Source: Bacillota bacterium (GTDB taxonomy: Bacteria > Bacillota > Negativicutes > DSM-13327). From it: a stretch of 64,000 nt of DNA. The stretch lies in NCBI GenBank assembly GCA_017889585.1, contig JAGFZX010000002.1, positions 1-64,000 on the forward strand, read 5' to 3'. A program made the position numbers and the translations under genes. Below, in pieces: positions 1,855 to 59,356 of the stretch; within the stretch, counting starts at the first letter, position 1; each line of letters begins with the position of its first letter. The notes under the pieces are model-generated. The model saw nothing but the letters and a program-made list of their open reading frames with translations. It was not told the DNA's origin and did not search any database.

Positions 1855-1883
1855 TTGACGTGGAATTCAATGTATGATATATT
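1855..1883 (+). promoter_or_regulatory. SigA-type promoter for nitrogenase-like operon 1
   Basis: TTGACG and TATATT separated by 17 bp, ending 24 bp before leader element 2. Confidence 0.65.
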
Positions 1884-1906
1884 TTTATAAATGAATTGTA
1901 AGATTG

Positions 1907-1968
1907 GCTGATCAGAAAAGCTGAAGGCTAAAAGTTTTCTTGAAATAAGGAATTCTTTTAGTTTTTTT
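1907..1968 (+). promoter_or_regulatory. Leader element 2 with terminator (tandem, first)
   Basis: GCTGA with TCAG/CTGA inner stem and AGGC running into a CTAAAAG/CTTTTAG terminator with T7. It is the first of two elements in series upstream of DUF2325 and NifD/NifK-like pair 1. Confidence 0.75.
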
Positions 1969-1979
1969 ATTATTTTAAA

Positions 1980-2040
1980 GCTGACTGGATAACCAGAGGC
2001 TGGTTTCTTTCGCACAGGCGGAAAACCAGTCTCTTTTTTT
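1980..2040 (+). promoter_or_regulatory. Leader element 3 with terminator (tandem, second)
   Basis: GCTGA with a CTGG/CCAG inner stem, which covaries relative to element 2, then AGGC leading into a GAGGCTGG/CCAGTCTC terminator and a T8 run. Only 11 bp separate it from the end of element 2. Confidence 0.75.
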
Positions 2041-2172: not shown

Positions 2173-2469
2173 ATGTCAGTTATGCTTATTGGCGCAGATC
2201 ACTTGGGTGGTATTGGGAAAAAATTGCAGTTGATGGGGTTTCATTCGATTGACCATGTAACTGGCAGAAATGTTAACGACCGCAAAAAATTTAAATGTCC
2301 ATTATCCACAGCTCTAATCGTTGTTTTTATTGATTATATCAATCATGCAACAGCAAAAAACATTAAGGCTACGGCTAAATCCCAGGGAGTGCCTCTTATT
2401 TTCGCTAATCGATCATGGAGCTCACTCAAGGATAAACTAGCTAAATTCAACCTCAAGGAATTGGGGTAA
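2173..2469 (+). CDS. DUF2325 domain protein
   Basis: 98-residue protein matching the DUF2325 pattern: N-terminal MLIGADHLGG, central HVTGR, DYINHATAK, and a C-terminal FANRSWSSL. The family has no firm function but is often encoded next to nitrogenase or molybdenum genes. A GGAGGTGAAAG ribosome site precedes the start. It is the first gene of the operon with nitrogenase-like pair 1, 38 bp upstream of the NifD-like gene. Confidence 0.8.
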   Translation: MSVMLIGADHLGGIGKKLQLMGFHSIDHVTGRNVNDRKKFKCPLSTALIVVFIDYINHATAKNIKATAKSQGVPLIFANRSWSSLKDKLAKFNLKELG

Positions 2470-2507: not shown

Positions 2508-3998
2508 ATGAGCAATTTTGATCAAAAAGAACCACCACGCAGAGAGCATCGTCTAAATGCCTGCATTGCTTGTGGCGGTACCTTGGCTGATATGGCAAAC
2601 CGTAAGATGAAATGTTGCGTTCCCGATGGGGAACGTAGCTTTACACAGAATAGTATTTGCTTGCTGCTACCTGCCCTGGGTATGATGAACAGTATTCCTA
2701 ACAGTGTTGTATTGATGCATGGCGCTGTGGGGTGCGGTTCTTCGGCTCATGGCGGTAATGCAGGAGTGCGGGCTGGTAATGTCCACCGCTGGGGTACTGC
2801 AAAAGATGGAGTATGGCTATCAACAGCCCTTGACGAAAGGGATGTCATTTGCGGTGGTGAAGAAAAGTTGGAAGAGGCTATTCGTGAAGTAGACCGTCGT
2901 TATAGTCCAACAATTATCTTCGTTGTGGCTGGTTGTGTTCCAGGAATTATCGGCGATGATATTGATGGTGTGGCTGAGCGTCTTCAGTCCGTCGTTGCGG
3001 CGAAGCTCCTTCCTGTTCATTGTGAAGGTTTTAAGACCAAAATATGGGCGACTGCTTATGATGCAGTGTATCATGCCCTGGGCCGAGTTATGCTCCAGGA
3101 TACAGCCGAAAATCTTGCTCTGGAGAAACCAAAAAAACCAACGATTAATCTGATGAATGTTTCTTCTATGGGACGTATTGATGAAGTAGAACTAGAGAGA
3201 TTACTTACATCCTTAGGACTTGATGTTAATATATTCCCAGTCTTTGCGAAACCAGAGAAGATGTATTCTGTGACTCATGCCGATCTTTCCATCAGTACCT
3301 GCCCGACGCATGATGATTATTTGCTTACGTATTTAAAGGAAAAATATAACATTCCCTATATCATTAAACATATGCCAATTGGGATAGGAAATACAGGTGA
3401 GTGGCTGCGCAATGTAGCTGAGTTTTTCGGTTTGCAAAACCAGGTGGAAGAGTTAATTGCCGCCGAAGAGGCAGAACTAAAAAAAGCATTAGAAGAATTC
3501 AAACCACTATTCAGTGGCAAAAAAGTATTTGTTAGCGCTGGAGAATTCCGGGCCCTTTCAACGGCAATCTTACTCGCAGAGCTTGGTTTTGAGGTCGTGG
3601 CTGTTCGGTCTTATCATCATGATGAATTTGCTGATGAAGAATATGAAAAACTTGCTAAAATTACGGTTAAAGATTTCCCACTCAGTATTGCTAATTGCCA
3701 GCCCTTTGAGGAAGCCAATCTAATAAGGCGAGTTAAACCTGATATTTTCCTTGGACATATGAATGGCAATTCTACAGCTGCTAAACTTGGTGTAGCAACT
3801 AATGCTATTTATAATGTTGGTCTTCAATTTGTCGGTTATCAGGGAGCCTATCAATTGGCCCGCCGCTTACATCGTCAATTAACAAACCCTAATTTTAACC
3901 AAAATATTAGTAAGTGGGTCAATTTGCCCTATTCTCAAGAGTGGTATGAACAAGATCCATTTACTCACATCAAGAATGGGGAGGTTGAAGGTCAATGA
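2508..3998 (+). CDS. Nitrogenase-like component 1, alpha (NifD-like) subunit, pair 1
   Basis: 496-residue oxidoreductase/nitrogenase component 1 protein. Cys51, Cys76 (GAVGCG) and Cys143 (AGCVPGIIGDD) match the three P-cluster cysteines of NifD. Cys265 (STCPTHDD) sits where NifD has its FeMo-co cysteine (Av Cys275). The C-terminal FVGYQG stretch aligns with GPYHGYDG, so the FeMo-co histidine is replaced by Val. Four extra N-terminal cysteines (C19, C22, C36, C37) are present. The gene overlaps the NifK-like gene by 4 bp. A related methylthio-alkane-reductase-like organosulfur activity is my inference; true N2 fixation looks unlikely. Confidence 0.9.
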   Translation: MSNFDQKEPPRREHRLNACIACGGTLADMANRKMKCCVPDGERSFTQNSICLLLPALGMMNSIPNSVVLMHGAVGCGSSAHGGNAGVRAGNVHRWGTAKDGVWLSTALDERDVICGGEEKLEEAIREVDRRYSPTIIFVVAGCVPGIIGDDIDGVAERLQSVVAAKLLPVHCEGFKTKIWATAYDAVYHALGRVMLQDTAENLALEKPKKPTINLMNVSSMGRIDEVELERLLTSLGLDVNIFPVFAKPEKMYSVTHADLSISTCPTHDDYLLTYLKEKYNIPYIIKHMPIGIGNTGEWLRNVAEFFGLQNQVEELIAAEEAELKKALEEFKPLFSGKKVFVSAGEFRALSTAILLAELGFEVVAVRSYHHDEFADEEYEKLAKITVKDFPLSIANCQPFEEANLIRRVKPDIFLGHMNGNSTAAKLGVATNAIYNVGLQFVGYQGAYQLARRLHRQLTNPNFNQNISKWVNLPYSQEWYEQDPFTHIKNGEVEGQ

Positions 3999-5338
3999 GT
4001 AGTTTTATTGAACGACCGCGCTTTACTTGCGCATTAGGAGGAGCAATGGCTACAGTGACTGCTTTACCTAGAACGGTGGCTATTTTACATGCCCCATCTG
4101 GGTGTGCGGGCAATAATGCATGGACACAAGCGGGGGGCTGCGGTTTACAGGTAGGAGGCTATTGCGGTGGACTGAGTATACCTGGATCGAATATTCAAGA
4201 AAAAGAAGTTGTTTTTGGTGGCATAGAACGGTTGGGGGAGCAAATCAATAACACATTGAAAGTCATGGATGGTGACTTATATGTAGTATTAACAAGTTGT
4301 GTTACTGATATTATTGGCGATGATGTGGCTTCAGTCGTAAGACCATTGAAAGAACAAGGCATTGATATTATTCATGCTGAGACTGGTGGCTTTAAGGGGA
4401 ATTCATATTTAGGATATGAATTGGTACTAGAAAGTTTGTTAGAAACATATATTGCTAAAGCCGAGACAGTGAAAGGCAGTGTTAATGTATGGGGAATTGC
4501 GCCTTACTTTGATGTCTTTTGGCGAGGTAATTTGGCAGGTGTAAGAACATTATTAGAGAAACTAGGCCTCACAGTAAATACGTTCTTTACCGTTGATGAC
4601 AGCCTTGAAGCTATTCGCCAGGCTGGTTCTGCTGAACTTAATATTGTTGTTTCTGATGTAATAGGGCAGAAGGCAGCTAAAATTAGCCGTGAGGTACACG
4701 GTATCCCTTATGTGATTAGTACCCTTCCCGTTGGTCCATCGGCTAGTAATGATTTTTTGCGTACTGTTGGAGCAGCGTTAAGTCTTGATCAGGCATTTGT
4801 AGAAGAGATTATTGCTCAGGAGAATCGGCGTTATTATCAGCTGCTTGAACCAATTACAGATTGCTTTAACGACATGGACTTGCAACGATATGCAGCCGTG
4901 ATTGGCGATTCCAATTATGCAGTAGCCATTACACGCTTTCTTGTTGATGATTTAGGTTGGTTGCCTGAGGTAGTAGCGATCACTGACGTGCTAGAAGAGA
5001 AAGAGCAATCAACTATCGTGGCAAGTTTCACCAGTCTTACGTCAGGGATAGCTCCTAAAATCATTTTTAATGGTGATAGTACCGCAATCTCTCGGCAAGT
5101 GAAAGAACACTGGGAGAGTCGTCAAGGAAAAAGTGGCAAGTACAGCAACCCTTTAACTCCAGCTTTTGTCGTTGGCAGTTCCCTTGATCGTCCCTTGGCC
5201 TTTGATTTAGGTGCAGCACATTTGAGTGTAAGCTTCCCTGTCGCTAACAGGGCAGTGATTGATAGGGGATATACAGGTTATAGTGGAGGTTTACGCCTTA
5301 TTGAGGACTTGATTAGCACTATTATTATTAATCGATAA
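3995..5338 (+). CDS. Nitrogenase-like component 1, beta (NifK-like) subunit, pair 1
   Basis: 447-residue partner of the preceding NifD-like protein, translationally coupled by an ATGA overlap. Cys12 (FTCALGG), Cys37 (APSGCAG) and Cys102 (TSCVTDIIGDD) match the three beta-side P-cluster cysteines. EVVFGGIERL and the GGFKGN motif are typical of component-1 beta subunits. It is shorter than true NifK (about 520) because it lacks the N-terminal extension. It is similar to the NifK-like proteins at 25.5 and 52 kb. Confidence 0.9.
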   Translation: MSSFIERPRFTCALGGAMATVTALPRTVAILHAPSGCAGNNAWTQAGGCGLQVGGYCGGLSIPGSNIQEKEVVFGGIERLGEQINNTLKVMDGDLYVVLTSCVTDIIGDDVASVVRPLKEQGIDIIHAETGGFKGNSYLGYELVLESLLETYIAKAETVKGSVNVWGIAPYFDVFWRGNLAGVRTLLEKLGLTVNTFFTVDDSLEAIRQAGSAELNIVVSDVIGQKAAKISREVHGIPYVISTLPVGPSASNDFLRTVGAALSLDQAFVEEIIAQENRRYYQLLEPITDCFNDMDLQRYAAVIGDSNYAVAITRFLVDDLGWLPEVVAITDVLEEKEQSTIVASFTSLTSGIAPKIIFNGDSTAISRQVKEHWESRQGKSGKYSNPLTPAFVVGSSLDRPLAFDLGAAHLSVSFPVANRAVIDRGYTGYSGGLRLIEDLISTIIINR

Positions 5339-5365: not shown

Positions 5366-5423
5366 GCTGATCAGGAATGAACTGAAGGCAAAGGAGCTCT
5401 AAACAGAGCACTCTTTGCCTTTT
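5366..5423 (+). promoter_or_regulatory. Leader element 4 with terminator
   Basis: GCTGA, TCAG/CTGA stem with loop GAATGAA, then AGGC entering a GGCAAAG/CTTTGCC terminator with T4. It precedes the double DUF2292 gene. Confidence 0.75.
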
Positions 5424-5444
5424 CATTATATAAGGAGGATTTTT

Positions 5445-7100: not shown

Positions 7101-8309
7101 TTGAAAGCCACAATATCAGACGATCTAAAGATGAAGGTCAGGGCTATTTCTTTAGGGGAATTATTCATGATTTATTTGAAGATTGGCTGTGTCGGTTTTG
7201 GTCCAACACTTGCGTCTGAAACCAAAAAGCATCTGGTCAAAGAATTAAACTGGATTAGCGAGGATGATTTTGTAAACGGTCTAGCTCTTGCACAACTTTT
7301 ACCTGGCGCGACCTTTGTTTCCCTTACCGTTTATATTGGATATCGACTGCGCGGAATTGCAGGTGGAGTGACTAGTTTCGTGGCTCTTTTGTTGCCGCCC
7401 TTTACCATTATGGTTGTACTGTCCTATATTTATTTTACATATGGTTCAATGACGGAGGTCGGTATTCTATTTAAAGGCATTGGAGTGGTCGTAGTTGGTC
7501 TGATTGCTCATGCTCTTATGGAAATTGGGAAATCTGTCGTTTCAGATATGAGAGGAATCCTCATTGCCCTAGCAGCCATGGGGGTTATTCTATATTGTCC
7601 TAATATTTTTATTGTGTTGTGTTTAGCGGCAGTGGCTGGTATTGGCCTATATTATCAGCCTTTAAAACGCCAAGCTAAAGTCGTCGTTAAGAGTGAGAGT
7701 TCTATTCAGCATAATAGGAAAGTTGTACCTATTAAACAGATTATTCTTCTCGGTGTTATATTGATTGTTCTTGGATATGGGGCGTCATTTCAGCCCATTC
7801 TGCTAACGTTAGGCTTGGTATTTTTTCGTATGGGAGCTTTCTTGTTTGGGGGCGGCTTTTCCATGATCCCTTTTATTCAGCAAGAAGTGGTCATGAATTA
7901 TCATTGGTTAACCCTTGATGAATTCATTGTAGGTATTGCTTTGGGTCAAGTCACCCCAGGACCCGTATTAATTACCGCAACTTTTATAGGTTATAAGGTT
8001 GCCGCTCTTAGTGGCGCTGCGGCTGCGACTCTTGGTATTTTCTTGCCCACACTATTTTTGGTTCCAGCTACTGCTGAAATTCATCTAAAAGTTCGGAATA
8101 ATCTTTGGGTACAGGCAGCCCTCAAAGGGGTTGTAGCGACCCTGACTGGTATGATGCTAGTAGTTGTTGTAAATTTGGCTCGCCATTCATTGATTGATGT
8201 ACCTTCAGCTCTGTTAGCGATAGGCATCTTTAGTGTGCTGAAATTTCGTAAGCCCAATACAATATGGGTAATTATCGGTGGAACACTGCTGTATTGTTTT
8301 ATCCGATGA
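7101..8309 (+). CDS. chrA: CHR (chromate transporter) family protein
   Basis: 402-residue membrane protein with two CHR domains. The first starts at about residue 17 (GELFMIYLKIGCVGFGPTLASE) and the second at about 237 (FFRMGAFLFGGGFSMIPFIQQEVV ... GQVTPGPVLI), giving about 10-12 membrane segments. Family members export chromate and some are linked to sulfate metabolism. TTG start with GGGGAGATG upstream. Given leader 5 and the sulfur island, transport of a sulfur oxyanion is possible; this is inference. Confidence 0.85.
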   Translation: MKATISDDLKMKVRAISLGELFMIYLKIGCVGFGPTLASETKKHLVKELNWISEDDFVNGLALAQLLPGATFVSLTVYIGYRLRGIAGGVTSFVALLLPPFTIMVVLSYIYFTYGSMTEVGILFKGIGVVVVGLIAHALMEIGKSVVSDMRGILIALAAMGVILYCPNIFIVLCLAAVAGIGLYYQPLKRQAKVVVKSESSIQHNRKVVPIKQIILLGVILIVLGYGASFQPILLTLGLVFFRMGAFLFGGGFSMIPFIQQEVVMNYHWLTLDEFIVGIALGQVTPGPVLITATFIGYKVAALSGAAAATLGIFLPTLFLVPATAEIHLKVRNNLWVQAALKGVVATLTGMMLVVVVNLARHSLIDVPSALLAIGIFSVLKFRKPNTIWVIIGGTLLYCFIR

Positions 8310-8435: not shown

Positions 8436-8503
8436 GCTGATCAGTAGTGTAACTGAAGGCAAAGAAAGATTCCCCATAAGGGGATCGGTCTTTGCCTTTT
8501 TTT
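8436..8503 (+). promoter_or_regulatory. Leader element 6 with terminator
   Basis: GCTGA, TCAG/CTGA stem with a long loop (TAGTGTAA), then AGGC into a GGCAAAG/CTTTGCC terminator that has a CCCC/GGGG core and a T7 run. It precedes the NifX-like gene. Confidence 0.78.
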
Positions 8504-9109: not shown

Positions 9110-9172
9110 GCTGATCAGAAAGACTGAAGGCTAAGGAAATTTCCGCATATACGGAAGCTTCCTTAGCCTTTT
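9110..9172 (+). promoter_or_regulatory. Leader element 7 with terminator
   Basis: GCTGA, TCAG/CTGA stem, AGGC continuing into GGCTAAGGAA with its complement TTCCTTAGCC and a short T-run. It controls the first metNIQ operon. Confidence 0.78.
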
Positions 9173-15085: not shown

Positions 15086-16381
15086 ATGGGCGATTTATTA
15101 GTAGATCTGCAGAAATGCACTAGGTGTGGCTTCTGCCAGGACGTTTGCCCTACTTATAAGGCCGAACTGAACGAAGGATCAGTGGCGCGGGGGCGTCTTA
15201 AGTTGGCGAAAATGATTGAAGAAGGCAAATACCGGTGGGATAGGGACAGTAAGCTTCATAAGCATATCAATGATTGTCTATTATGTGGTGCTTGTGTTAG
15301 CAACTGTCCCGGCTCTATTCCGGTTAGCGAAGTGATGATAAAAGCTCGGCAGAAAATTAATAAACAATCTGGTACCGATCTGTTTTACAAGGTTGCCTAC
15401 AAGGGGGCGCTTTCTGATCAGAAAAAACTCAAATTGGGCCGAAATTTTATGCGGTTATACCAAATAACTGGAGTAAAGAGGTTGGTAACTGCCACAGGAA
15501 TATTAAAAGCGATACCACCATTAAAAGTAATGGAAGAGAGAATGCCAGAGGTACCGAAAAAAACATTTTTTGAGATGTTGCCAGATTTGGTTGTCCAACT
15601 GCAAAATCCGAAGTACAAAGTGGCTTATTTTTGTGGGTGTGCTACAAACTCATTTTTTGGTGACGTTGGTGCCGCTACCGTAAAGGTGTTGCAAAAGTTG
15701 AATTGCCAAGTATACGCTCCAACTGTGGAGTGTTGCGGTGAGCCTCATAAAGGTGCGGGTGATCTGGAGGAAGCAAAAAGATTGGCCAAAAGGAATATTG
15801 ATATCTTTTTTAACGAGAAAAATTTTGACTTTATTATTACAGATTGTGCTACTTGTGGCAGTGCGTTAAAAAATTACAAGAGATTGTTGGGCGATGATAT
15901 AGCTTATCAGATGAAAGCCGAACAATTTAGTGCTGCTGTTTATGACCTGAATCAGTTTATAGTATATAAAACTGATGCGCTAGAGAACATATCGGCAATT
16001 GACAATCAGGAGATAACCGTAACGTATCATGATCCTTGCCATCTGGTACGGGGTCAGAAAATTTCTGAGGCGCCCAGAGAAATACTGAAAAAAATACCTA
16101 GTGTAGTACTCGTTGAAATGGAAGATACAAACAGTTGCTGCGGCGGTGCAGGATCCTACGGATTCACTCACCATCGTTTATCAAAAAAATTTTTGCAAAA
16201 TAAAATGGAAAAGGTAAAGGCTACTGGAGCTAATTGTTTAGCTACCTGCTGCCCAGCGTGCATGATGCAGCTTGGTTACGGCATTAGAAGCGAGCAATTG
16301 AACATGAAGCTGGTGCACCCTGTGCAACTACTAGATAAAGCGCTGCTACAAACGATAGCTGATCAAAAAGTTGAAGGCTAA
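15086..16381 (+). CDS. Fe-S subunit of glycolate-oxidase-type complex, GlcF-like
   Basis: 431-residue protein with two 4Fe-4S motifs near the N-terminus (CTRCGFCQDVCP at about residue 11 and CLLCGACVSNCP at about 67) and two CCG cysteine-rich domains (ECCGEPHKGAG at about 213; NSCCGGAGSYG at about 351). It takes electrons from the flavin subunits. The last seven codons (IADQKVEG) coincide with a match to the core of the leader element (16358-16378). Confidence 0.88.
   Translation: MGDLLVDLQKCTRCGFCQDVCPTYKAELNEGSVARGRLKLAKMIEEGKYRWDRDSKLHKHINDCLLCGACVSNCPGSIPVSEVMIKARQKINKQSGTDLFYKVAYKGALSDQKKLKLGRNFMRLYQITGVKRLVTATGILKAIPPLKVMEERMPEVPKKTFFEMLPDLVVQLQNPKYKVAYFCGCATNSFFGDVGAATVKVLQKLNCQVYAPTVECCGEPHKGAGDLEEAKRLAKRNIDIFFNEKNFDFIITDCATCGSALKNYKRLLGDDIAYQMKAEQFSAAVYDLNQFIVYKTDALENISAIDNQEITVTYHDPCHLVRGQKISEAPREILKKIPSVVLVEMEDTNSCCGGAGSYGFTHHRLSKKFLQNKMEKVKATGANCLATCCPACMMQLGYGIRSEQLNMKLVHPVQLLDKALLQTIADQKVEG
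16358..16378 (+). promoter_or_regulatory. Leader-element core lacking a terminator, inside the glcF 3' end
   Basis: The full core pattern is present: GCTGA, TCAA/TTGA inner stem, A-rich loop and AGGC. No T-run hairpin follows. It could be a relic from the edge of an insertion, or chance. Confidence 0.35.
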
Positions 16382-16473
16382 TTTCTTTGCAAGACAAGAG
16401 AAGATGCCTTAATAGGGCAAGTTCGGTTCTGCGAGGCGCGCTTCTAAAAAGCTTACAGCTATAAGTAGAAAAA

Positions 16474-17270: not shown

Positions 17271-17337
17271 GCTGGCTGGTCAAAGAACTAGAGGCTATAT
17301 TCCATTAAATGATGGAGCATAGCCTCTTTATTTTTTT
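17271..17337 (+). promoter_or_regulatory. Leader element 8 with terminator
   Basis: GCTGG with a CTGG/CTAG inner stem (one G-U pair), loop TCAAAGAA, then AGGC in an AGAGGCTAT/ATAGCCTCT terminator with a T7 run. Nearly identical in wording to element 11. Confidence 0.78.
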
Positions 17338-20997: not shown

Positions 20998-21061
20998 GCT
21001 GATTGGAAAAACCAAAGGCCGAGGGTGTTTTTTTTTAAGGTGGACACTTGCGGTCTTTTTT
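20998..21061 (+). promoter_or_regulatory. Leader element 9 with terminator (tandem, first)
   Basis: GCTGA, TTGG/CCAA inner stem, AGGC into a GGCCGAGGGTGT/ACACTTGCGGTC hairpin with T7. The inner stem is a third compensatory version. Confidence 0.75.
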
Positions 21062-21102
21062 ACGTAATCAGAAAATAATAATTATATAAATTATATATTT
21101 AC

Positions 21103-21167
21103 GCTGATCAGTAAAAAAGCTGAAGGCAAAGAAAGACTTCTCAAAGAAGTCAATCTTTGCCTTTTTT
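21103..21167 (+). promoter_or_regulatory. Leader element 10 with terminator (tandem, second)
   Basis: GCTGA, TCAG/CTGA stem, AGGC into GGCAAAG/CTTTGCC terminator with T6. It lies 42 bp after element 9, in front of the SsuABC plus nitrogenase-like operon 2. Confidence 0.78.
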
Positions 21168-26869: not shown

Positions 26870-26935
26870 GCTGACTGGTCAAAGAACTAGAGGCTATGTT
26901 CCATTTATGTATGGGATGTAGTCTCTTTATTTTTA
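26870..26935 (+). promoter_or_regulatory. Leader element 11 with terminator
   Basis: GCTGA, CTGG/CTAG inner stem, loop TCAAAGAA, AGGC in an AGAGGCTATGTTCCAT hairpin with its complement and a T-run. Upstream of the flavin-binding protein gene. Confidence 0.78.
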
Positions 26936-30098: not shown

Positions 30099-30157
30099 GT
30101 TGACTGGAAAAACCAGAGGCAGATTTTTTTAATTTTGAAAAGATCTGTCTTTTTATT
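30099..30157 (+). promoter_or_regulatory. Leader element 13 with terminator
   Basis: GTTGA, CTGG/CCAG inner stem, AGGC in a GAGGCAGAT/ATCTGTCTT hairpin with a T-run. Upstream of the DUF1858 gene. Confidence 0.75.
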
Positions 30158-30441: not shown

Positions 30442-30510
30442 GCTGGTTGGACAAAATCCAAAGGCTAGAATGATATTTCTATGGAAATATTACTCTAGCC
30501 TTTTTGTTTT
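30442..30510 (+). promoter_or_regulatory. Leader element 14 with terminator
   Basis: GCTGG, TTGGA/TCCAA inner stem (five pairs), AGGC in a GGCTAGA/TCTAGCC-type hairpin ending in T5. It controls the intact NifH gene; the nifH scar at 39.1 kb has the same TTGG type. Confidence 0.78.
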
Positions 30511-33037: not shown

Positions 33038-33099
33038 GCTGATCAGAACACTGAAGGCTAAAGAATTCCTCCGTATGAGGGGCTTCTTTAGCCTTTTTT
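33038..33099 (+). promoter_or_regulatory. Leader element 16 with terminator
   Basis: GCTGA, TCAG/CTGA stem, AGGC in GGCTAAAGAA/TTCTTTAGCC hairpin with T6. Upstream of the AprAB-like and SsuCBA operon. Confidence 0.78.
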
Positions 33100-39004: not shown

Positions 39005-39069
39005 ACTGATTGGGATGAACCAAAGGTCAGAAAAATTTTCCCAAGGGGAATGTTTTTCTGACCTTTTTT
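39005..39069 (+). promoter_or_regulatory. Leader element 18 with terminator
   Basis: ACTGA ... AGGT outer variant with TTGG/CCAA inner stem; AGGT begins an AGGTCAGAAAAA hairpin with its complement and T6. It precedes the nifH deletion scar and now the NifB gene. Confidence 0.78.
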
Positions 39070-40575: not shown

Positions 40576-40640
40576 GCTGATCAGAAAACTGAAGGCTAAG
40601 GAATTGTTCCGTATGCGGAACTGCCTTAGCCTTTTTCTTT
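40576..40640 (+). promoter_or_regulatory. Leader element 19 with terminator (triple array, first)
   Basis: GCTGA, TCAG/CTGA stem, AGGC in a GGCTAAGG/CCTTAGCC terminator with T5. First of three in series. Confidence 0.78.
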
Positions 40641-40697: not shown

Positions 40698-40752
40698 GCT
40701 GATTAGAAAAACTGAAGGCTAAAAGTTTCTCATAGGTAGAATTCTTTTAGCC
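40698..40752 (+). promoter_or_regulatory. Leader element 20 with weak terminator (triple array, second)
   Basis: GCTGA, TTAG/CTGA inner stem (one U-G pair), AGGC in a GGCTAAAAG/CTTTTAGCC hairpin, followed by GATTATAT rather than a T-run. Confidence 0.65.
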
Positions 40753-40769
40753 GATTATATCATCTTAAA

Positions 40770-40902
40770 GCTGACTGGATAACCAGAGGCTGGGTTTTCG
40801 CGGGATCGAAGAGTATAACACTTTCCGATTCCAAGTAAGGGCAACTAAGGCTTTGTGCAAGCCAAGTTTTCTTTATATAGGCGGAAATCCAGTCTCTTTT
40901 TT
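40770..40902 (+). promoter_or_regulatory. Leader element 21, terminator split by an insertion (triple array, third)
   Basis: GCTGA, CTGG/CCAG stem, AGGC. The terminator arms (GAGGCTGG and CCAGTCTC with T6) match element 3, but the loop holds about 80 extra bases. These resemble the repeat at 48.76-48.85 kb (AGTATAACACTTTC, TTCCAAGTAAG, ACTAAGGCTT). Confidence 0.7.
40800..40880 (+). repeat. Interspersed repeat copy A, inside the leader 21 terminator loop
   Basis: Shares AGTATAACACTTTC, TTCCAAGTAAG and ACTAAGGCTT blocks with 48.76-48.85 kb. A short AGAAAGTATAAG match also occurs near 6830. Possibly a REP or MITE-like element. Confidence 0.6.
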
Positions 40903-40921: not shown

Positions 40922-42013
40922 ATGGAAAAAAATAAAGATCAGATGACTCCGTTGGAACGTTTTGCGGCTTATAACAAGCAAGAATCAATTGATCGTCTGC
41001 CTTGTGTTCCCATTGTCGGTAATACGGCAGCACGGGTTATTGGGGTTCGCGTATCGGATTTTCGAGGGAATGGTAAGTTAATAGCGAAGGCCCATATTGA
41101 ATCCTATCAGCTGTTTCGTTATGATACCGTTCGAATCTTTACAGATTTGTATGTGCAGGCTGAGGCTATGGGGGCCGAAGTTCATTATCCAATGGATGAA
41201 ACGGCATATTTGAAAGTGCCTGCCATTGAAGCAGTCAGTCAGATTGACAACTTGCAACCAGCTAATCCTTACCTGGATGGTAATTTACCTCACCACCTTG
41301 AAGCAATGAAAATTGCAATGGATGCCATAGGTCATGAGGTTCCGATTACTGGAGCTTTGATTGCACCTTTTACCAATGCTGCTTTTTTAATTGGTACAGA
41401 GAACCTAGTGCGATTGGTAGGTAAAAATCCAGAGGCCGTTCATAAACTTTGTGAAGTTTCCTTGCAGACGGCACTTCAATATGCTAAAGCCATCATTGAC
41501 ATAGGTTGTACACCAAGTTTGACTGATGCCATGTCTTCTACTACGGTAATTAGTCCGCGACAGTTTCGAGAATTTTCGGTTCCTTATTTAAAAAGGTTAA
41601 TTGATTATATACATTCTCGTGGAAAAACAGTGACTTTGCACGTTTGTGGCAAGACAGCGAAGATCTGGGAGGATATGTGTGATGCTGGAGCTGACTGTCT
41701 TAGTATTGATAATGATGCTAGTTTGTTAGACGCAAAGGCTAAAGTTGGTTTTAGGTCTAGGTTGATGGGGAATATCAAACCTTCTGAAACTATGTTACAA
41801 GGTACAATTCATGATGTCCGAAAGGCTGTATATCAATGTGTTGCTCAAGGATTTGATAATCCGAAAGGATATATTGTCGCTAGCGGTTGTAGTCTACCGA
41901 CTGAAACACCATTTGAGAATATTAAAGCCATGTTAGATGCAGTAAGAGAAATAGGTTATCCCATACATGGGAGCCAGTTGAAGGAAGGGGTCGTGGAAGG
42001 TGTTAAGTTCTAA
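40922..42013 (+). CDS. MtaA/UroD-family methyltransferase
   Basis: 363 residues. The zinc motif HVCGKT is at about 239 and CSLPTETP near 322 gives the third thiol ligand. ATG after ATAAGGAGAG. It moves a methyl group between the corrinoid protein of this operon and a thiol or other acceptor. The stop overlaps the next paralog by 14 bp, so the two may form a heterodimer. Confidence 0.85.
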   Translation: MEKNKDQMTPLERFAAYNKQESIDRLPCVPIVGNTAARVIGVRVSDFRGNGKLIAKAHIESYQLFRYDTVRIFTDLYVQAEAMGAEVHYPMDETAYLKVPAIEAVSQIDNLQPANPYLDGNLPHHLEAMKIAMDAIGHEVPITGALIAPFTNAAFLIGTENLVRLVGKNPEAVHKLCEVSLQTALQYAKAIIDIGCTPSLTDAMSSTTVISPRQFREFSVPYLKRLIDYIHSRGKTVTLHVCGKTAKIWEDMCDAGADCLSIDNDASLLDAKAKVGFRSRLMGNIKPSETMLQGTIHDVRKAVYQCVAQGFDNPKGYIVASGCSLPTETPFENIKAMLDAVREIGYPIHGSQLKEGVVEGVKF

Positions 42014-43016
42014 AGAACGGTTACTTACAGTATTGCGAAAGGGTAAAGTAGATCGTCCACCTGTTATTTGTACAGGTGGCATGATGAATGCAGCGATAGT
42101 AGAGATTATGAATAATACAGGGCATACCCTGCCAGAGGCTCATAGTGATGCAGAGTTGATGGCTCACCTTGCTGGTGATGTATATGAGCAGACAGGGTTT
42201 GAGAATATCGGAATTCCCTTTTGCATGACAGTGGAAGCCGAGGTTTTAGGTAGTGAGGTTACTTATGGAACGCTGATTTGTGAACCGAAAATCATGCAAG
42301 AAGTTTTTCCCACTGTTAGTGTGGTAGAAACAAAAAGTATTAATACCATGCTAGATGACGGGCGTATAAATACAGTGGTTAAAGCTACGGCCATACTGGC
42401 GGAGCGTTACCCGGATGTGCCCATTATCGGAAATTTAACAGGTCCAATCAGTACAGCAGCTTCTTTAGTAGATCCCATATCTTTATTGAAAGAGTTTAGA
42501 AAGAAACCAGCAGAATGTCATCGGGTATTGGATTATGTTACAACTCTAATTGTTGGTTTTGCTGAACGGATGATTGCTAGTGGTGCTACGGTCATTTCGA
42601 TTGCTGATCCAACGGCTACTGGTGAAATATTAGGGCCTAAAGTGTTTAGGGAATTTGCTGTTTTATATCTTAATCGGATTATTGATGCAGTACATGCTAA
42701 GAATATTCCCGTTTTGGTGCATATTTGTGGGAATATGAATACTGTACAATCTTTAATTCCTGAGATTAGAGCAGATGCCATCAGTACCGATGCCCTTGTT
42801 AACCTAAGGCAACTAAAGGCTGATTACTCCCAGCTTACAACCATGGGAAATGTGAGTACTTATTTGCTGGAATTTGGCTCTGTAGAAAAAGTGGCCCAGC
42901 AAACTCAACGATTAGTTCAGGATGGAGTGGACATTATTTCACCTGCTTGTGGATTGAGTACGTCCACTTCTTTAAAATTAATCAGGGCGATGACTGACGC
43001 GGTGAAGGAGGGCTAA
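42000..43016 (+). CDS. MtaA/UroD-family methyltransferase, second copy
   Basis: 338 residues, GTG start inside the previous gene. HICGNM zinc motif at about 241 and ACGLSTST at about 319. Shares its architecture with the 40.9-kb and 0.8-kb proteins but is divergent, suggesting separate methyl donors or acceptors. Confidence 0.85.
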   Translation: MLSSKERLLTVLRKGKVDRPPVICTGGMMNAAIVEIMNNTGHTLPEAHSDAELMAHLAGDVYEQTGFENIGIPFCMTVEAEVLGSEVTYGTLICEPKIMQEVFPTVSVVETKSINTMLDDGRINTVVKATAILAERYPDVPIIGNLTGPISTAASLVDPISLLKEFRKKPAECHRVLDYVTTLIVGFAERMIASGATVISIADPTATGEILGPKVFREFAVLYLNRIIDAVHAKNIPVLVHICGNMNTVQSLIPEIRADAISTDALVNLRQLKADYSQLTTMGNVSTYLLEFGSVEKVAQQTQRLVQDGVDIISPACGLSTSTSLKLIRAMTDAVKEG

Positions 43017-43020
43017 TGTT

Positions 43021-44640
43021 ATGATAGAAGTCGTTTTTCATCATGCAGGTCAAGAGACAAGTGCTAGGGTTAATGTGGGCGATGATCTGTTAACTGCAGC
43101 TAGACAGGGGGGAGTAATACTAGAGTCTCCTTGTAATGGGAATGGGACGTGCGGTAAATGCAAAGTAAAAATCCTATCATCCTTAGCAGAAGAGGAGATT
43201 GTACTGGCGTGTCATACCAAGGTTGATCATGATGTAGTGGTAGAAATCATTGAGCGTCATGACAGTGGAAATCTTCAAATTAAGCAGGATGGCTTGGTTA
43301 ACAGTGGTGAGATTGACAGTATTATTACCAAGAAGTATATTTCCCCGAGTAATGTTACCCATGTATATCGAAAAAAGGAATTGATTTCAACAGAGCAGGG
43401 CAATACAGAGGAAGAAATTTATGGTTTAGCCATTGATATTGGTACAACCACATTAGTTGTTTCGCTGGTTAATTTGTTGACAGGGGAAGAACTTGCAGGA
43501 GCAGGTGCTCTTAATCCACAAAGTAGACTGGGGCAAGATGTATTATCGCGGATAAGGTATGCATCTAAAGAACAGGGTTTAGTAGAAATGAATCAACTGA
43601 TCATTGAAGAATTAAATAGAATGATCCTACAAGTAACAGCAGATGCTGCCATTGTGGCTCACCATGTTTATGAATTGGTATTGAGCGGCAATACGTGTAT
43701 GTTACATTTAGCAGTAAAGGCCAATCCAGGGCCGTTAGGTAAATATCCCTATACGCCAGTGATTCGCGGTGGCAACTCCATAGCAGCAAATGACCTTGGT
43801 CTTTACGCTGTCCCTAATGCAGAGGCATATTTGTCACCTATTATTTCTGCCTATGTAGGAGGAGATATTACTTCAGGTATTTTGGTTTCGCGTTTGGCTG
43901 AGCGGGAAGATACCAATCTATTTATAGACATTGGCACAAATGGGGAGATTGTACTCGCAACTGGCGGAAGGCTAGTAGCAACATCCACTGCTGCTGGCCC
44001 GGCTTTTGAAGGTATGAATATTTCTTGTGGCATGCGGGCAGCACCAGGTGCAATCGAGGGTTTTTCTTTAACGACAGACGGGGAGAGGACATTGAAAAAC
44101 ATTGGCGATCAAGCTGCTGTTGGCATCTGCGGTAGTGGTTTACTGGATATAGTAGCAGCGTTGGTCCAAAATGGAGTCATTGAAGGCAACGGAAAGTTCA
44201 GTAAAACCATGAATGAAAACCTGAGTGCACTACTCACTCAAGTGAATGGGAAAGTTGTTTTTTCTGTTGCAGAGGGAGTCTATCTATCTCAACCAGATAT
44301 ACGTCAGGTTCAATTGGCAAAGGGGGCAATTCGGGCGGGGATTGAGGCACTGCTTGAATATCAGAATATAACTGTCGCAGATGTAGATAGAGTGTTGATT
44401 GCTGGTTCTTTTGGTTATCATTTGAATCCGGACAGCTTAATTGGGATTGGTTTGTTGCCTGAAGCATTTCGGGATAAAATAGAGTTTTTGGGAAATACAT
44501 CCAAAACAGGCGGGCAAGAATTTTTACTAAATCAAGGATCTCGTTTGGCTATTGATCAGACGATTGCAGAGATTGCGGTGCTAGAATTGGCTACTGTAGA
44601 TAAGTTTGATCGATTATTTGTTAAATGTTTAGAATTTTAG
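43021..44640 (+). CDS. Corrinoid-activation protein (RamA/RACo-like, DUF4445)
   Basis: 539 residues. An N-terminal 2Fe-2S ferredoxin domain (CNGNGTCGKC at about 39-48, with a fourth Cys at about 65) is followed by an ASKHA-type ATPase (LAIDIGTTTLVVSL at about 138; FIDIGTNGEI at about 301). Such proteins use ATP to reduce Co(II) corrinoids to active Co(I). It starts 5 bp after the second MtaA-like gene. Confidence 0.88.
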   Translation: MIEVVFHHAGQETSARVNVGDDLLTAARQGGVILESPCNGNGTCGKCKVKILSSLAEEEIVLACHTKVDHDVVVEIIERHDSGNLQIKQDGLVNSGEIDSIITKKYISPSNVTHVYRKKELISTEQGNTEEEIYGLAIDIGTTTLVVSLVNLLTGEELAGAGALNPQSRLGQDVLSRIRYASKEQGLVEMNQLIIEELNRMILQVTADAAIVAHHVYELVLSGNTCMLHLAVKANPGPLGKYPYTPVIRGGNSIAANDLGLYAVPNAEAYLSPIISAYVGGDITSGILVSRLAEREDTNLFIDIGTNGEIVLATGGRLVATSTAAGPAFEGMNISCGMRAAPGAIEGFSLTTDGERTLKNIGDQAAVGICGSGLLDIVAALVQNGVIEGNGKFSKTMNENLSALLTQVNGKVVFSVAEGVYLSQPDIRQVQLAKGAIRAGIEALLEYQNITVADVDRVLIAGSFGYHLNPDSLIGIGLLPEAFRDKIEFLGNTSKTGGQEFLLNQGSRLAIDQTIAEIAVLELATVDKFDRLFVKCLEF

Positions 44641-44650
44641 GAGGATGAAT

Positions 44651-45304
44651 ATGTCAAAACATACAGAGAATAAACTTTCGTGCACCTATTGCGGGGTATT
44701 AAATTGCCACAAACAAGACAAAACATTTCCTGAGTTTTGCCTGACATCAAAGTATGATGATGAGAATGCTGTAGCGGTAGAACTTTACCGAGAAGAAGGT
44801 GAAACAGCAAAAATTGCTCGTGCCGCAGCAGAAATAGAAGGAATTTATTATGGAAAATTGACCAGGGTAGAAGAAATTATCGCGTTTAGCAAAAGAATAG
44901 GAGCTAAAAAAATCGGGATTGCGACTTGTGTTGGCTTGATTAATGAAGCTAAAACATTTATGAGAATATTAGAAGCTAAGGGGCTGGAAAGTTATAGTGT
45001 ACTCTGCAAAGTTGGATCAGTGGATAAAACAGAAATTGGCATTCCTGAAGAATTAAAGGTGCAGCAAGGCGCCCATGAGTCACTTTGTAATCCTGTTTTA
45101 CAGGCGATGATACTGAATAAACAGCAGACTGATTTGAATGTAATTATTGGTTTGTGTGTTGGTCATGATTCTTTATTTATCAAGCATTCAGAAGCCCCGG
45201 TGACCACACTGATTACTAAAGATCGTATTCTAGGTCATAATCCAGCGGCGGCATTATATACCAGTAGTTTTTACTATAAAAGACTTTTAGAGAAAGAAGA
45301 GTGA
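44651..45304 (+). CDS. DUF1847 protein
   Basis: ATG 44651, six bases after GGAGG, is preferred to 44645. About 217 residues with the cysteine-rich start CTYCGVLNCHK, and IGLCVGHDSLFIKHS and GHNPAAALYT as in DUF1847. The metal-binding family has no settled function and often occurs beside corrinoid methyltransferase genes. Confidence 0.82.
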   Translation: MSKHTENKLSCTYCGVLNCHKQDKTFPEFCLTSKYDDENAVAVELYREEGETAKIARAAAEIEGIYYGKLTRVEEIIAFSKRIGAKKIGIATCVGLINEAKTFMRILEAKGLESYSVLCKVGSVDKTEIGIPEELKVQQGAHESLCNPVLQAMILNKQQTDLNVIIGLCVGHDSLFIKHSEAPVTTLITKDRILGHNPAAALYTSSFYYKRLLEKEE

Positions 45305-45317
45305 GGAGTTGATGATC

Positions 45318-46391: not shown

Positions 46392-46400
46392 AAAGGAGGA

Positions 46401-47953: not shown

Positions 47954-47990
47954 TGATAGCAATTTTGCAAATAAATAAGGAGGTTTTACC

Positions 47991-48751: not shown

Positions 48752-48754
48752 CTG

Positions 48755-48855
48755 CGGCATCAGAAAGTATAACACTTTCTTGCTTCCAAGTAAGAACGAC
48801 TAAGGCTTCTGCTCGCGTCTGAGGACTTGGCAAGCCTTAGTCGTTCTTATAGTGT
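48755..48855. repeat. Interspersed repeat copy B
   Basis: Contains GAAAGTATAACACTTTC, TTCCAAGTAAG, then an inverted repeat AAGAACGACTAAGGCTT ... AAGCCTTAGTCGTTCTT. Related to the insertion in the leader 21 terminator. Confidence 0.65.
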
Positions 48856-51414: not shown

Positions 51415-51483
51415 AAAAAATAAAAACGAAAAGGCCGAGTTTATCCCGTAGGATAGACTCGGCCTTTAGTTTTTCTAACCAGC
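51415..51483 (-). promoter_or_regulatory. Leader element 22 with terminator, minus strand
   Basis: Read on the minus strand: GCTGG, TTAG/CTAA inner stem, AGGC in an AAGGCCGAGT/ACTCGGCCTT hairpin, then TTCGTTTTTATTTTT. It shows that the element is oriented with its gene and not a plus-strand repeat. Confidence 0.8.
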
Positions 51484-51737: not shown

Positions 51738-51797
51738 GCTGATCAGAAAAACTGAAGGCTAAAGTAATGTCCTTTTGGATATACTTTAGCCTTTTTT
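51738..51797 (+). promoter_or_regulatory. Leader element 23 with terminator (tandem, first)
   Basis: GCTGA, TCAG/CTGA stem, AGGC in a GGCTAAAGTA hairpin with its complement and T6. Confidence 0.8.
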
Positions 51798-51877: not shown

Positions 51878-51948
51878 ACTGATCAGTAGTACATACTGAA
51901 GGCAAAGACGGATCCTAATATAAGGATCAATCTTTGCCTTCTTTGTTT
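51878..51948 (+). promoter_or_regulatory. Leader element 24 with terminator (tandem, second)
   Basis: ACTGA, TCAG/CTGA stem with a long loop, AGGC in a GGCAAAGAcGGATC hairpin with its complement; T-run interrupted (TTCTTTGTTT). 80 bp after element 23, before nitrogenase-like pair 3. Confidence 0.75.
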
Positions 51949-51973: not shown

Positions 51974-53314
51974 ATGAGCAAATTTATTGAGAGACCACGC
52001 TATTTATGTACACTTGGGGGTGCAATAGCAACTTTGAAAGTCTTGCCACGTGTAGTGCCTATTATCCATGCTGCAGCTGGTTGTGGTGGTAATATTGCCA
52101 ATGCCTTGCATGGTGCATCTGGCTATTTGGGCAGTGGCTATTGTGCAGGACTAGCGCTACCGAGTTCTAATATCTATGAAAAAGATATTGTATTTGGTGG
52201 AGAAGAACGATTAACTGAACAAATTACTACAACACTTGAGGTTATTGATGGTGACTTGTATTTTGTAGTCACTGGATGCATGGTGGATATTATTGGTGAT
52301 GATGCAGTGGCGGTGGCAAAGCGGTTTCACCAAGATGGCAAGCCGGTTTTGGCAGCTGAGACAGGTGGCTTTAAAGGCAATTCTTATAAAGGGTACGATA
52401 TTGTTCTAAGTAAACTATTTGCTGACTTTGTTGAAAAGAATCCAGTAAAGGAAAAGAATGTTGTTAATTTATTTGGTATTGTCCCCATTCAGGATGTATT
52501 TTGGAAAGGTAATTTGAATACCTTAAAAGCACTTCTTGAAAAAATTGGTTATGAGGTTAATAGCTTTTTTGGTGAAGGAGAAACACTGGAAAATCTTAAA
52601 TATGCTGGTGCTGCTAGTTTTAATATCCTTGTATCTGATGTATATGGGGTTGAACCTGCCAAAATATTCGAAGAAACCCATGGAGTACCTTATGTGATTG
52701 CAACCTTACCTATTGGTTCAGCTGGTACTGAAAGATTCTTGCGCACAGTAGGCGAAGCCTTAGGGACTGAAAAGACCCTCGTTGAGCAGGTCATTGCCGA
52801 GGAAAAAGCCCGCTATTATAGCTATATAGAACGATTGGCTGATGTCTATAATGATTTGGATTTTCAACGGTACAGTGTAGTGGTGGCTGATGTGAATTAC
52901 GCTCCAGCTCTGGCTAGATTTCTGGCTGATGATTTGGGATGGTTACCAGAGCTCGTGGTGATTACCGATGTCCTTACGGAAGAAGAGCAGCAATTGGTAG
53001 AAGCAAGATTTGAAGACTTTACGTCTGGTATTCGTCCTAAAGTTGTATTTGATACCAATACATCGAATGTGAGCAAACATTTCAATGCTTCTTGGCCGCG
53101 TAATAACAACGATCGATATTTCGATAGTTTTAGCCCCGCATTTGTTTTGGGAAGTAGTTTAGACCGGGATTTTGCTTCATCCATAGGAGCACCGCACTTA
53201 AGTGTATCTTATCCGGTATCCAACAGGGTTGTCCTGGATAGAGCCTATGTTGGTTACCGCGGAGCATTAAGTTTAGTGGAAGATATTTTTGGATTATTAG
53301 TAGAAAGCAGATAG
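51974..53314 (+). CDS. Nitrogenase-like component 1, beta subunit, pair 3
   Basis: 446 residues. Cys12 (YLCTLGG), Cys37 (AAAGCGG) and Cys102 (TGCMVDIIGDD) match P-cluster ligands. It is closest by eye to the pair-1 beta subunit (shared ETGGFKGNSY and DDLGWLPE). The gene order here is beta then alpha, opposite to pairs 1 and 2. Confidence 0.9.
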   Translation: MSKFIERPRYLCTLGGAIATLKVLPRVVPIIHAAAGCGGNIANALHGASGYLGSGYCAGLALPSSNIYEKDIVFGGEERLTEQITTTLEVIDGDLYFVVTGCMVDIIGDDAVAVAKRFHQDGKPVLAAETGGFKGNSYKGYDIVLSKLFADFVEKNPVKEKNVVNLFGIVPIQDVFWKGNLNTLKALLEKIGYEVNSFFGEGETLENLKYAGAASFNILVSDVYGVEPAKIFEETHGVPYVIATLPIGSAGTERFLRTVGEALGTEKTLVEQVIAEEKARYYSYIERLADVYNDLDFQRYSVVVADVNYAPALARFLADDLGWLPELVVITDVLTEEEQQLVEARFEDFTSGIRPKVVFDTNTSNVSKHFNASWPRNNNDRYFDSFSPAFVLGSSLDRDFASSIGAPHLSVSYPVSNRVVLDRAYVGYRGALSLVEDIFGLLVESR

Positions 53315-53327
53315 GAGAGAGAATGAA

Positions 53328-54842
53328 ATGGATTATATAAAAGATAAAGCACCTCCAGTACGTGAAGATCGTTTAAGAGCTTGTAATGCATATGGAGGAT
53401 CATGCAACAATTTGGTGGAACAATCCCAAAAGGGATGCCTTAATGGCATCAAGAGGACATTTTCCCAAACTCAAGGATGCCAGTTAAACTTAAGTCTAGC
53501 TATATTGAACACGATTCGTGATGCAGTGGTTATTGTGCATGGTCCCCTTGGTTGTGGTGGAGCTAATTTATCAGTTGCTGGAATCAATAAGAACTTCCAA
53601 CAATTGCGAGACAGTAACGCACGGGGATTGCTATGGGTTAATACCAATATGGGTGAGTCAGAAGTCATCAATGGTGGTGAAAATAATTTACGAGATGCCA
53701 TTTTGCATGCTGAAAAGGAATTTCGTCCGAGTGCCATTATTATTGTGAATAGCTGTGTACCAGCCATTATCGGCGATGACATTGATAGTGTTGTCGAAGG
53801 AGTACAAGGTGAAATAAAGGCCAAAATTGTACCTGTGCATTGCGAAGGTTTCAAGACGAAAATCATGGCTAGTGCTTATGATGCAGTATATCATGGAATC
53901 TTACGGAATCTGATACCAGAGCTGGATGCAGATGCAGTATCTAAACAAGACAATAAAAATCAACTTGAAGAATTACAGGAAAAATATCGTATGAGTCGTA
54001 CGGTGAATGTGCTCAATGTTTCGTCTATGAGTCGCGTTGACGAGTATGAATTGGTGAGGTTATTAAAAGCTTTGGATTTAAATTTAAACATATTGCCTTG
54101 TTATGCTCATCCTGAAGATTTTCTTAAAGCCACTGAGGCGGCACTTAATGTGAGTATTTGTGCGACTCATGACGATTATTTTGTTGAACATTTAAAAACA
54201 AAATATAATATTCCCTTTATTCTTCGAACCATTCCAGTTGGTGTTAAATATACAAATCGTTGGATTGAGGATATTGCTAAATTCTTTGGCCTTGAAGAAG
54301 AGGCTCAACGATTTATTGCCCAAGAAACTAAATTACTCGAAGAAGCATTGGAACCATATCGAGCATTGTTTAAAGGGAAAAGAGTCGTGATTGGTGGTGG
54401 TGAAATTCGTGTTGTTGCTAATGCTGAACTTCTTACTTACCTTGGATTTCAAGTAGTGGGTATGCGTGCTTATCATTATGATCAGTTTGCTGATGAAATG
54501 CTAGAAGAAGTCGCAGAAAGTGATAAAGTTCCATTTAATGTAGCCACTGGACAGCCATTTGAACAGGCCAATTTGCTTGCCAATTTGAAACCAGACTTGT
54601 ATGTCGGTCATGTTAATAACAATGGGTGGGCAGGAAAACAGGGGATTCCCGTTTTACCAATCTTTCACCAAAGTAATATCTTCCTCGGTTATACAGGGGT
54701 ATTCGAATTTGCTCGGCGTTTAGCCAGAGTGCTACGAAATTCTTCATTTAATCGCAATTTAGGTGAAAATACGAAACTTCCTTACTTTGAAAACTGGTAT
54801 GAAAATGATGCTTTTTCCTACATCGATGAGGGAAATGTATAG
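53328..54842 (+). CDS. Nitrogenase-like component 1, alpha subunit, pair 3
   Basis: 504 residues. Cys51, Cys76 (GPLGCGG) and Cys143 (NSCVPAIIGDD) fall at the same positions as in pair 1; Cys278 (SICATHDDY) matches the FeMo-co cysteine. The NifD His442 position is Leu (FLGYTG). A 14-residue insertion (about 205-218) separates the first two domains. It lies 13 bp after the beta gene and 37 bp before cysK. Confidence 0.9.
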   Translation: MDYIKDKAPPVREDRLRACNAYGGSCNNLVEQSQKGCLNGIKRTFSQTQGCQLNLSLAILNTIRDAVVIVHGPLGCGGANLSVAGINKNFQQLRDSNARGLLWVNTNMGESEVINGGENNLRDAILHAEKEFRPSAIIIVNSCVPAIIGDDIDSVVEGVQGEIKAKIVPVHCEGFKTKIMASAYDAVYHGILRNLIPELDADAVSKQDNKNQLEELQEKYRMSRTVNVLNVSSMSRVDEYELVRLLKALDLNLNILPCYAHPEDFLKATEAALNVSICATHDDYFVEHLKTKYNIPFILRTIPVGVKYTNRWIEDIAKFFGLEEEAQRFIAQETKLLEEALEPYRALFKGKRVVIGGGEIRVVANAELLTYLGFQVVGMRAYHYDQFADEMLEEVAESDKVPFNVATGQPFEQANLLANLKPDLYVGHVNNNGWAGKQGIPVLPIFHQSNIFLGYTGVFEFARRLARVLRNSSFNRNLGENTKLPYFENWYENDAFSYIDEGNV

Positions 54843-57204: not shown

Positions 57205-57267
57205 GCTGATCAGATAACTGAAGGCAAAAGAACTGTTTTAAAGCAGATTCTTTTGCCTTTTCTTTTT
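57205..57267 (+). promoter_or_regulatory. Leader element 26 with terminator
   Basis: GCTGA, TCAG/CTGA stem, AGGC in a GGCAAAAGAA/TTCTTTTGCC hairpin with a T-rich tail. Controls the cysK-larE unit. Confidence 0.78.
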
Positions 57268-59287: not shown

Positions 59288-59356
59288 GCTGATTGGAAAA
59301 CCAAAGGCCGAGGATGTCCCCTATTTAGGGAGGACATCTGAGGTCTTTTTTATTTT
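59288..59356 (+). promoter_or_regulatory. Leader element 27 with terminator
   Basis: GCTGA, TTGG/CCAA inner stem, AGGC in an AGGCCGAGGATGTCC hairpin with its complement and T6. Upstream of the YeiH-type exporter. Wording is close to element 9. Confidence 0.78.

Follow-up and report, generated by a model that had tools for sequence, protein, structure and literature searches.

BglG/LicT RAT leaders pair a short internal-loop hairpin with the 5' arm of an intrinsic terminator that it overlaps, and protein binding leads to read-through, with several operons per factor. ANTAR dual-hairpin leaders (EutV, NasR) also work by antitermination via a hairpin overlapping the terminator, and they need two hairpins with A1/G4 hexaloops. 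In Bacillota, S-box (SAM-I) and T-box leaders exert regulon-wide transcription attenuation over sulfur and methionine genes, and tandem riboswitches and T-boxes place two complete regulatory units in series. In bacilli, a premature-terminator leader before sulfonate ABC operons has been mentioned in the text of one survey (Naville and Gautheret 2010, PMC2965389).

The leader unit described here shares part of its design with each of these systems. It resembles RAT leaders in architecture but differs in sequence and loop arrangement, and it precedes sulfur rather than sugar genes. Unlike ANTAR leaders, it has a single hairpin with a variable loop of 3-10 nt. It is far smaller than S-box and T-box leaders, matches nothing in Rfam, and is predicted to switch ON upon binding, whereas the S-box switches OFF. 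As in tandem riboswitches and T-boxes, some leaders carry two complete units in series, here of different subtype. The sulfonate-transporter leader is likewise an attenuator and may or may not be related to our unit. We know of no described control of nitrogenase-like C-S-cleaving enzymes, sulfonate uptake or corrinoid methyltransferase clusters in anaerobes. Passages on these genes in two papers name no regulator (PMC10418091, PMC9147875). The unit occurs in at least two phyla, at up to about 40 sites per genome. It yields a list of candidate co-regulated genes, several of unknown function, makes the search for a sensor (protein or ligand) directly testable and, through its conserved single and double leaders, offers a natural experiment on serial attenuation.

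Tandem attenuators in a sulfur-scavenging region

The window covers the initial 64 kb of contig C2 in a draft genome (4.24 Mb, 84% complete); the best named matches to its family are Sporomusa and Pelosinus. Ahead of a nitrogenase-like operon we found two complete attenuators in series, at 1907-1968 and 1980-2039 (forward strand, as are all features below unless marked). Each is a ~21-nt hairpin whose 3' strand (AGGC) doubles as the 5' arm of an intrinsic terminator. A sigma-A-like promoter, TTGACG-17-TATATT with an overlapping TATGAT (1856..1884), lies 23 nt before unit 1 and has 10/12 consensus matches, a level reached by 2.5% of shuffles. The antiterminator hairpin of unit 1, GCTGATCAGAAAAGCTGAAGGC (1907..1928; segments GCTGA, TCAG, AAAAG, CTGA and AGGC), scores 58.4 bits against our covariance model and is predicted to pair with P about 0.99 as long as the terminator 3' arm has yet to be transcribed. 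The terminator that follows (1926..1968, -13.1 kcal/mol) pairs CTAAAAG with CTTTTAG, ends in a T7 tract and has GGC in common with the hairpin. Unit 2 repeats this layout with the hairpin GCTGACTGGATAACCAGAGGC (1980..2000; GCTGA, CTGG, ATAA, CCAG and AGGC; 46.9 bits), whose letters are almost invariant across genera, and with a terminator formed by GGCTGGTTT and AAACCAGTCTC followed by TTTTTTT (1998..2039, -17.7 kcal/mol). Downstream, a single operon encodes a 98-aa DUF2325 protein (2173..2469; Pfam PF10087, 3.4e-12) and the nitrogenase-like genes D1 (2508-3998) and K1 (3995-5338; both PF00148, together 2508..5338). Between the second terminator and the DUF2325 start lies a hairpin-forming stretch (2085-2160) that has no other copy in the window and makes this DUF2325 leader longer than those of relatives. 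A leader peptide with cysteine codons was considered and rejected: an ATG-AAT-TGT...TGA frame precedes 1907, and inspection by eye revealed none like it at other units.

An initial annotation had proposed tandem leaders here, each with its own terminator, and the same design at two further sites. Both units and terminators were recovered at 1907/1980, with a gap of 11-13 nt from the first T-run to unit 2, and the two other pairs proved real. The second pair precedes an SsuCBA-like ABC transporter and D2K2, and joins a TTGG-class unit with its terminator (20998..21063, 65.4 bits) to a TCAG-class one (21103..21166, 62.7 bits). The third precedes K3 (51974-53314) and D3 (53328-54842; PF00148, together 51974..54842). 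Its first unit (TCAG class, with terminator, 51738..51796, 69.1 bits) has a TTGACA-16-TATACT promoter 35 nt upstream; its second (51878..51943, 57.3 bits) carries N1=A, giving an A.C mismatch, and a 6-bp inner stem (TCAGTA/TACTGA), a subtype also present in relatives. No promoter was recognisable between the units of any of the three pairs, and at 1907/1980 there is no room for one. Since a promoter precedes the first unit and none is recognisable between the units, each pair is probably serial within one transcript. As judged from the DNA alone, the pairs thus have the makings of a tandem attenuator: two complete units, one transcript and no intervening promoter.

The window is a dense sulfur-scavenging region. 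It holds three nitrogenase-like DK pairs, one NifH-like and one NifB-like gene, two methionine-type ABC transporters, further ABC transporters of sulfonate type, and an operon for corrinoid URO-D/RACo methyltransferase (40922-48647). Also encoded are cysteine-synthase-family and cystathionine-lyase-family enzymes, an aminotransferase resembling cysteine desulfurase, and proteins resembling YezD (DUF2292), LarE and YeiH. Its D and K genes match Oxidored_nitro and fall below the cut-offs of true NifDK/NifEN; by sequence, the DK operons class as nitrogenase-like, group IV, and methylthio-alkane-reductase-like. Single units precede the YezD-like DUF2292 gene (5366..5424), a NifX-like ORF (8436..8501), MetN-MetI-MetQ (9110..9172), the second met ABC transporter (17271..17329) and a PNPOx-like gene (26870..26928), the last two behind perfect TTGACA-17-TATAAT promoters. 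Others stand before a DUF1858-like small ORF (30099..30154), the nifH-like gene at 30536 (30442..30505), an AprA-like flavoprotein with an Ssu-like ABC transporter (33038..33098), a NifB-like radical SAM gene (39005..39068, with A-T at N1-N4'), a cysteine-synthase-like PALP gene (57205..57262) and a YeiH-like transporter (59288..59350). One divergent unit on the reverse strand (51428..51483) precedes DUF4418/FtsX/LolD-like genes.

A triple group, 40576/40698/40770, precedes the URO-D/RACo operon rather than a DK pair. Its first unit is intact (40576..40636, 75.4 bits); the other two are a damaged copy of the 1907/1980 pair (40698..40902, 83% identity), in which the first terminator lacks a T-run and a ~90-nt dispersed repeat (40792-40882) interrupts the second. 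Copies related to that repeat lie at 48754-48808 and on two other contigs (L028, L033). A degenerate unit at 16358-16413, also without a T-run, overlaps the end of a GlcF-like ORF (15086-16381) and is possibly a decayed leader adjoining an IS200-like transposase gene. Behind the YeiH-like gene with its own unit at 59288, a 114-aa protein (60804-61148) has no Pfam match. A chromate-transporter gene (7101-8309) sits within the sulfur cluster; chromate transporters of C. ljungdahlii are up-regulated with apparent sulfur limitation (PMC5640608).

Structure and breadth of the unit

The window contains about 28 units and the genome about 40. The TCAG form alone occurs ten times in the window against 0.00 in shuffles, and a core-plus-terminator scanner found 22 units in the window and 0 in reversed sequence. 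Chance can be dismissed because the shuffle and reversed-sequence controls were empty and a covariance model, built from 12 units and giving 37 matches in the genome at E <= 0.01, recovered the same units. Units were present in 28/41 relatives searched, at up to 40 per genome. They also appeared in 22/22 named genomes (Sporomusa, Propionispora, Clostridium, Ruminiclostridium, heliobacteria, Paenibacillus, Geobacteraceae and Candidatus Adiutrix), a measure of breadth and not of prevalence, as these genomes were mostly picked because a locus already had a unit. Comparison thus outlines a regulon of sulfur-scavenging genes across Negativicutes, Clostridia, heliobacteria, Paenibacillus and Desulfobacterota; one Geobacteraceae genome has ten units, most on one contig in a sulfur cluster of the same gene kinds.

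We searched for earlier descriptions of the unit. Rfam 15 covariance models at gathering score (SAM-I, T-box, cobalamin and others) gave no match in the 64 kb, a relaxed search of the leader returned chance matches only, and a literature search found no description of this attenuator. The main text of a Sporomusa sphaeroides Term-seq paper names cobalamin riboswitches only (PMC12456013), and the operons named in the text of a published C. ljungdahlii sulfur-limitation transcriptome were not matched to units of that genome.

A consensus drawn from 277 non-identical units reads N1 Y2 U/C3 G4 A/G5, a 4-bp stem YYRG/CYRR enclosing an A-rich loop, then A1' G2' R3' N4'. The loop is mostly 4-5 nt and not conserved. 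N1-N4', Y2-R3' and Y3-G2' pair beneath a GA/A internal loop, and G2'R3'N4' is also the foot of the terminator 5' arm. Across 150 aligned matches, the antiterminator fold, with its three outer and its four inner pairs, was 98.7% paired with 121 double-changed cells versus 36 in shuffles, and the inner stem plus terminator was 99.0% paired with 378 versus 85. In a relaxed scan that required none of the tested pairs, N1, N4' and the terminator arm covary as the triples G-C-G, T-A-T and A-T-A; Y2, R3' and the arm covary as C-G-C and T-A-T. There, N1-N4' paired in 137 cases against a maximum of 126 in 2000 shuffles, and N2-N3' in 150 against 139. Because N4' and R3' each covary with two partners, the 3' strand of the hairpin is common to two mutually exclusive folds, and the covariation supports such exclusivity between antiterminator and terminator. 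In most units the antiterminator stem is predicted at P >= 0.9 ahead of synthesis of the terminator 3' arm, and the terminator at P about 1 in the full transcript; units 694 and 5366 are exceptions, in which the antiterminator is not predicted as an early fold. The leaders accordingly show what attenuation calls for: an intrinsic terminator between promoter and gene, and an exclusive antiterminator with covariation on both folds.

TCAG and CTGG had been annotated as different inner-stem classes, a distinction that did not hold up. TCAG, CTGG, TTGG, CCAG, CTAG and TTAG are all YYRG stems of one covarying YYRG/CYRR helix, and preference among them follows taxon, with TCAG at 48% in Negativicutes, CTGG/CTAG in Clostridia and CCAG in Desulfobacterota. 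Some conserved pairs, 51738/51878 for example, carry TCAG in both units. A kink-turn or C/D-box reading of the CTGA repeats was discarded for the same kind of variation: the second CTGA is part of the inner stem in units of TCAG class, and CCAG, CCAA or CTGG takes its place in others.

Operons with doubled leaders

Doubling had initially been tied to the DK operons, with enrichment in relatives set as the test. Within the window the tie held, with doubled leaders before 3/3 DK operons versus 1/19 others (Fisher p = 0.0026), although the annotation had counted too few units and overlooked the triple group before URO-D/RACo. The test in relatives was passed in Negativicutes: across ten genomes, 12/33 leader groups before K-type (DK) genes had multiple units versus 15/234 elsewhere (odds ratio 8.3, p = 8.6e-6). 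Dropping two near-duplicate genomes left multi/single counts of 9/15 before DK and 14/169 elsewhere (odds ratio 7.2, p = 2.4e-4). Outside Negativicutes, DK leaders were mostly single. Among 34 named DK loci with a leader, 30 were single and four double, L042 being counted as double after a covariance-model match was added to the scanner's.

The 1907/1980 pair did not hold up as a DK leader as such. This compact pair, with a 72-nt period, is the leader of DUF2325: it occurs in the window, on contig C66, in eight other genomes of the source family (G002-G009) and in two of another family (G026, G040). Homologous pairs stand directly before DUF2325, and in four genomes (G004, G006, G026, G040) YezD or other genes follow with no DK. 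The second unit, GCTGACTGGATAACCAGAGGC, is nearly invariant among DUF2325 leaders. One further genome (G020) has a double leader with wider spacing before DUF2325, and only one unit is present there in two others (G010, G027). Eight of the ten genomes retain the K3D3 pair (51738/51878); its second unit has the A.C outer pair and, in most of them, the longer inner stem. Leaders corresponding to the D2K2 pair (20998/21103) are also doubled in Sporomusa KB1, S. silvacetica and one soil MAG, and the likely D2K2 orthologues in G002 and G004-G006 have one detected unit. A simple rule that DK means double fails because the 1907/1980 pair belongs to DUF2325, even where DK lies elsewhere, and because DK leaders outside Negativicutes are mostly single. 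By comparison across genomes, doubling is an evolutionarily kept feature of DUF2325 and K3D3 leaders, not of nitrogenase-like operons generally. In C. ljungdahlii, a doubled leader (L087 5805-5994) precedes a nifB-like gene rather than DK in a NifB-NifHDK-like cluster, and the nifH-like gene behind it has a further unit.

Candidate factors and models of control

Three protein families were considered as the binding factor and rejected as general factors. DUF2325 looked attractive as an autoregulated trans-acting factor because in Negativicutes its gene lies behind the doubled leader, and most unit-rich genomes have two copies. It is missing in heliobacteria, Geobacteraceae, Paenibacillus and Ruminiclostridium, where units number up to 18; a 24-bit partial match in Heliobacterium was taken as chance. 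ANTAR proteins occur in most genomes with or without units and do not follow them; they are missing from G027, which has 29 units, and from G042, G050, G053, G061 and G062. CAT_RBD proteins were found in 5/17 genomes with units and absent from 12/17. Clustering all neighbours of units across taxa revealed no linked regulator apart from Rrf2 proteins in three genomes.

We favour, with reasonable though not high confidence, a model in which the two serial units answer one sulfur-limitation signal through an antiterminator hairpin held by a protein, with OFF as the default, low leak and a steep response. As the RNA is made, the antiterminator hairpin would form first. With nothing holding it, the stronger terminator would strip away its lower strand and transcription would stop. 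In sulfur limitation, a signal suggested by the sulfur-scavenging genes behind the units, a factor on the hairpin would keep the terminator foot open and RNA polymerase would read through. We surmise that binding thus turns the operons ON and that an RNA-binding protein encoded away from the units is the likeliest factor; protein is preferred over ligand because little of the unit is both conserved and unpaired. With two units in series, stop probabilities would multiply and two binding events would be needed, which would lower the leak and steepen the response to a single signal. The exceptions at units 694 and 5366 and the unplaced C. ljungdahlii operons weigh against this model. Doubling, which persists at DUF2325 and K3D3 and is over-represented before nitrogenase-like units, probably serves such tight, steep control, as might suit products that are costly or need tight shut-off. 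Sharper or two-input control had been proposed at the outset; sharper, tighter one-input control is the best reading, and the two-input half did not gain support.

The small asymmetric internal loop is of a type typical of protein sites, and we know of no natural aptamer as small as the ~21-nt unit. Both points bear on a rival we rate as unlikely, in which a sulfur-status metabolite binds directly to the GA/A internal-loop hairpin, perhaps together with the terminator stem, so that the unit would be a very small riboswitch and tandem copies would steepen the response. No linked or shared regulator was found, which is why we carry this alternative forward. Distant genomes, including those with one or two units, link none; DUF2325, ANTAR and CAT_RBD proteins are each missing from some unit-bearing genomes; and the same unit spans Bacillota and Desulfobacterota. 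The lack of a linked regulator, together with the failure of three candidate families, somewhat favours direct ligand sensing, but ~21 nt, with a loop that is not conserved and only about five conserved positions that are unpaired or non-canonical, is little to build an aptamer from. In its broader form, this alternative posits a widespread, uncatalogued riboswitch of anaerobic Bacillota and Desulfobacterota with its ~21-nt aptamer in the terminator foot, directly sensing a sulfur-starvation metabolite and deployed as single, double and degenerate triple switches, which we consider doubtful.

The doubling itself could be neutral, reflecting recent tandem duplication or leader mobility. The genome offers a precedent, since the 1907/1980 pair has extra copies at 40698/40770 (damaged) and C66:22916, and the likely orthologous operons of G002 and G004-G006 do not show the 20998/21103 doubling. 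We nevertheless regard neutrality as improbable: the DUF2325 and K3D3 doublings persist across several genera at similar spacing, and in neither are the two units recent copies of each other. Another rival has a separate factor reading each inner-stem class. In its favour, the second unit of DUF2325 leaders is nearly invariant and always of CTGG/CTAG class behind a TCAG-like first unit, and the second K3D3 unit is a distinct A.C-mismatch, long-stem subtype. Yet inner stems vary by taxon for the same kinds of genes, the K3D3 pair is TCAG in both units, and most operons have one unit of either class, leaving two-input control very improbable. Least credible of all is that the units are not RNA leaders but ordinary terminators serving the genes upstream, or else DNA operators built on the palindrome CTGATCAG. 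Some units do follow the preceding gene closely (1836 to 1907), but CTGG, TTGG, CCAG and CTAG units lose the palindrome while keeping RNA pairing, promoters lie just upstream of several units, and units precede genes of one pathway on both strands.

Two protein families near the units merit separate mention. In a Geobacteraceae MAG, Rrf2-family-like genes, relatives of CymR/IscR as judged by eye (L187 4872-5381 and 6804-7265), lie inside a unit-controlled sulfur cluster, and Rrf2-like relatives occur near Heliobacterium and Geomesophilobacter clusters. DUF2325 comes as two paralog kinds in most unit-rich Negativicutes genomes, one behind a doubled leader and one without a unit; copies lie at 2173-2469, G000:C66:22631-22897 and G000:C37:1035-1298, with the conserved blocks GADHLG, HVTGR, VNH and KRSW.
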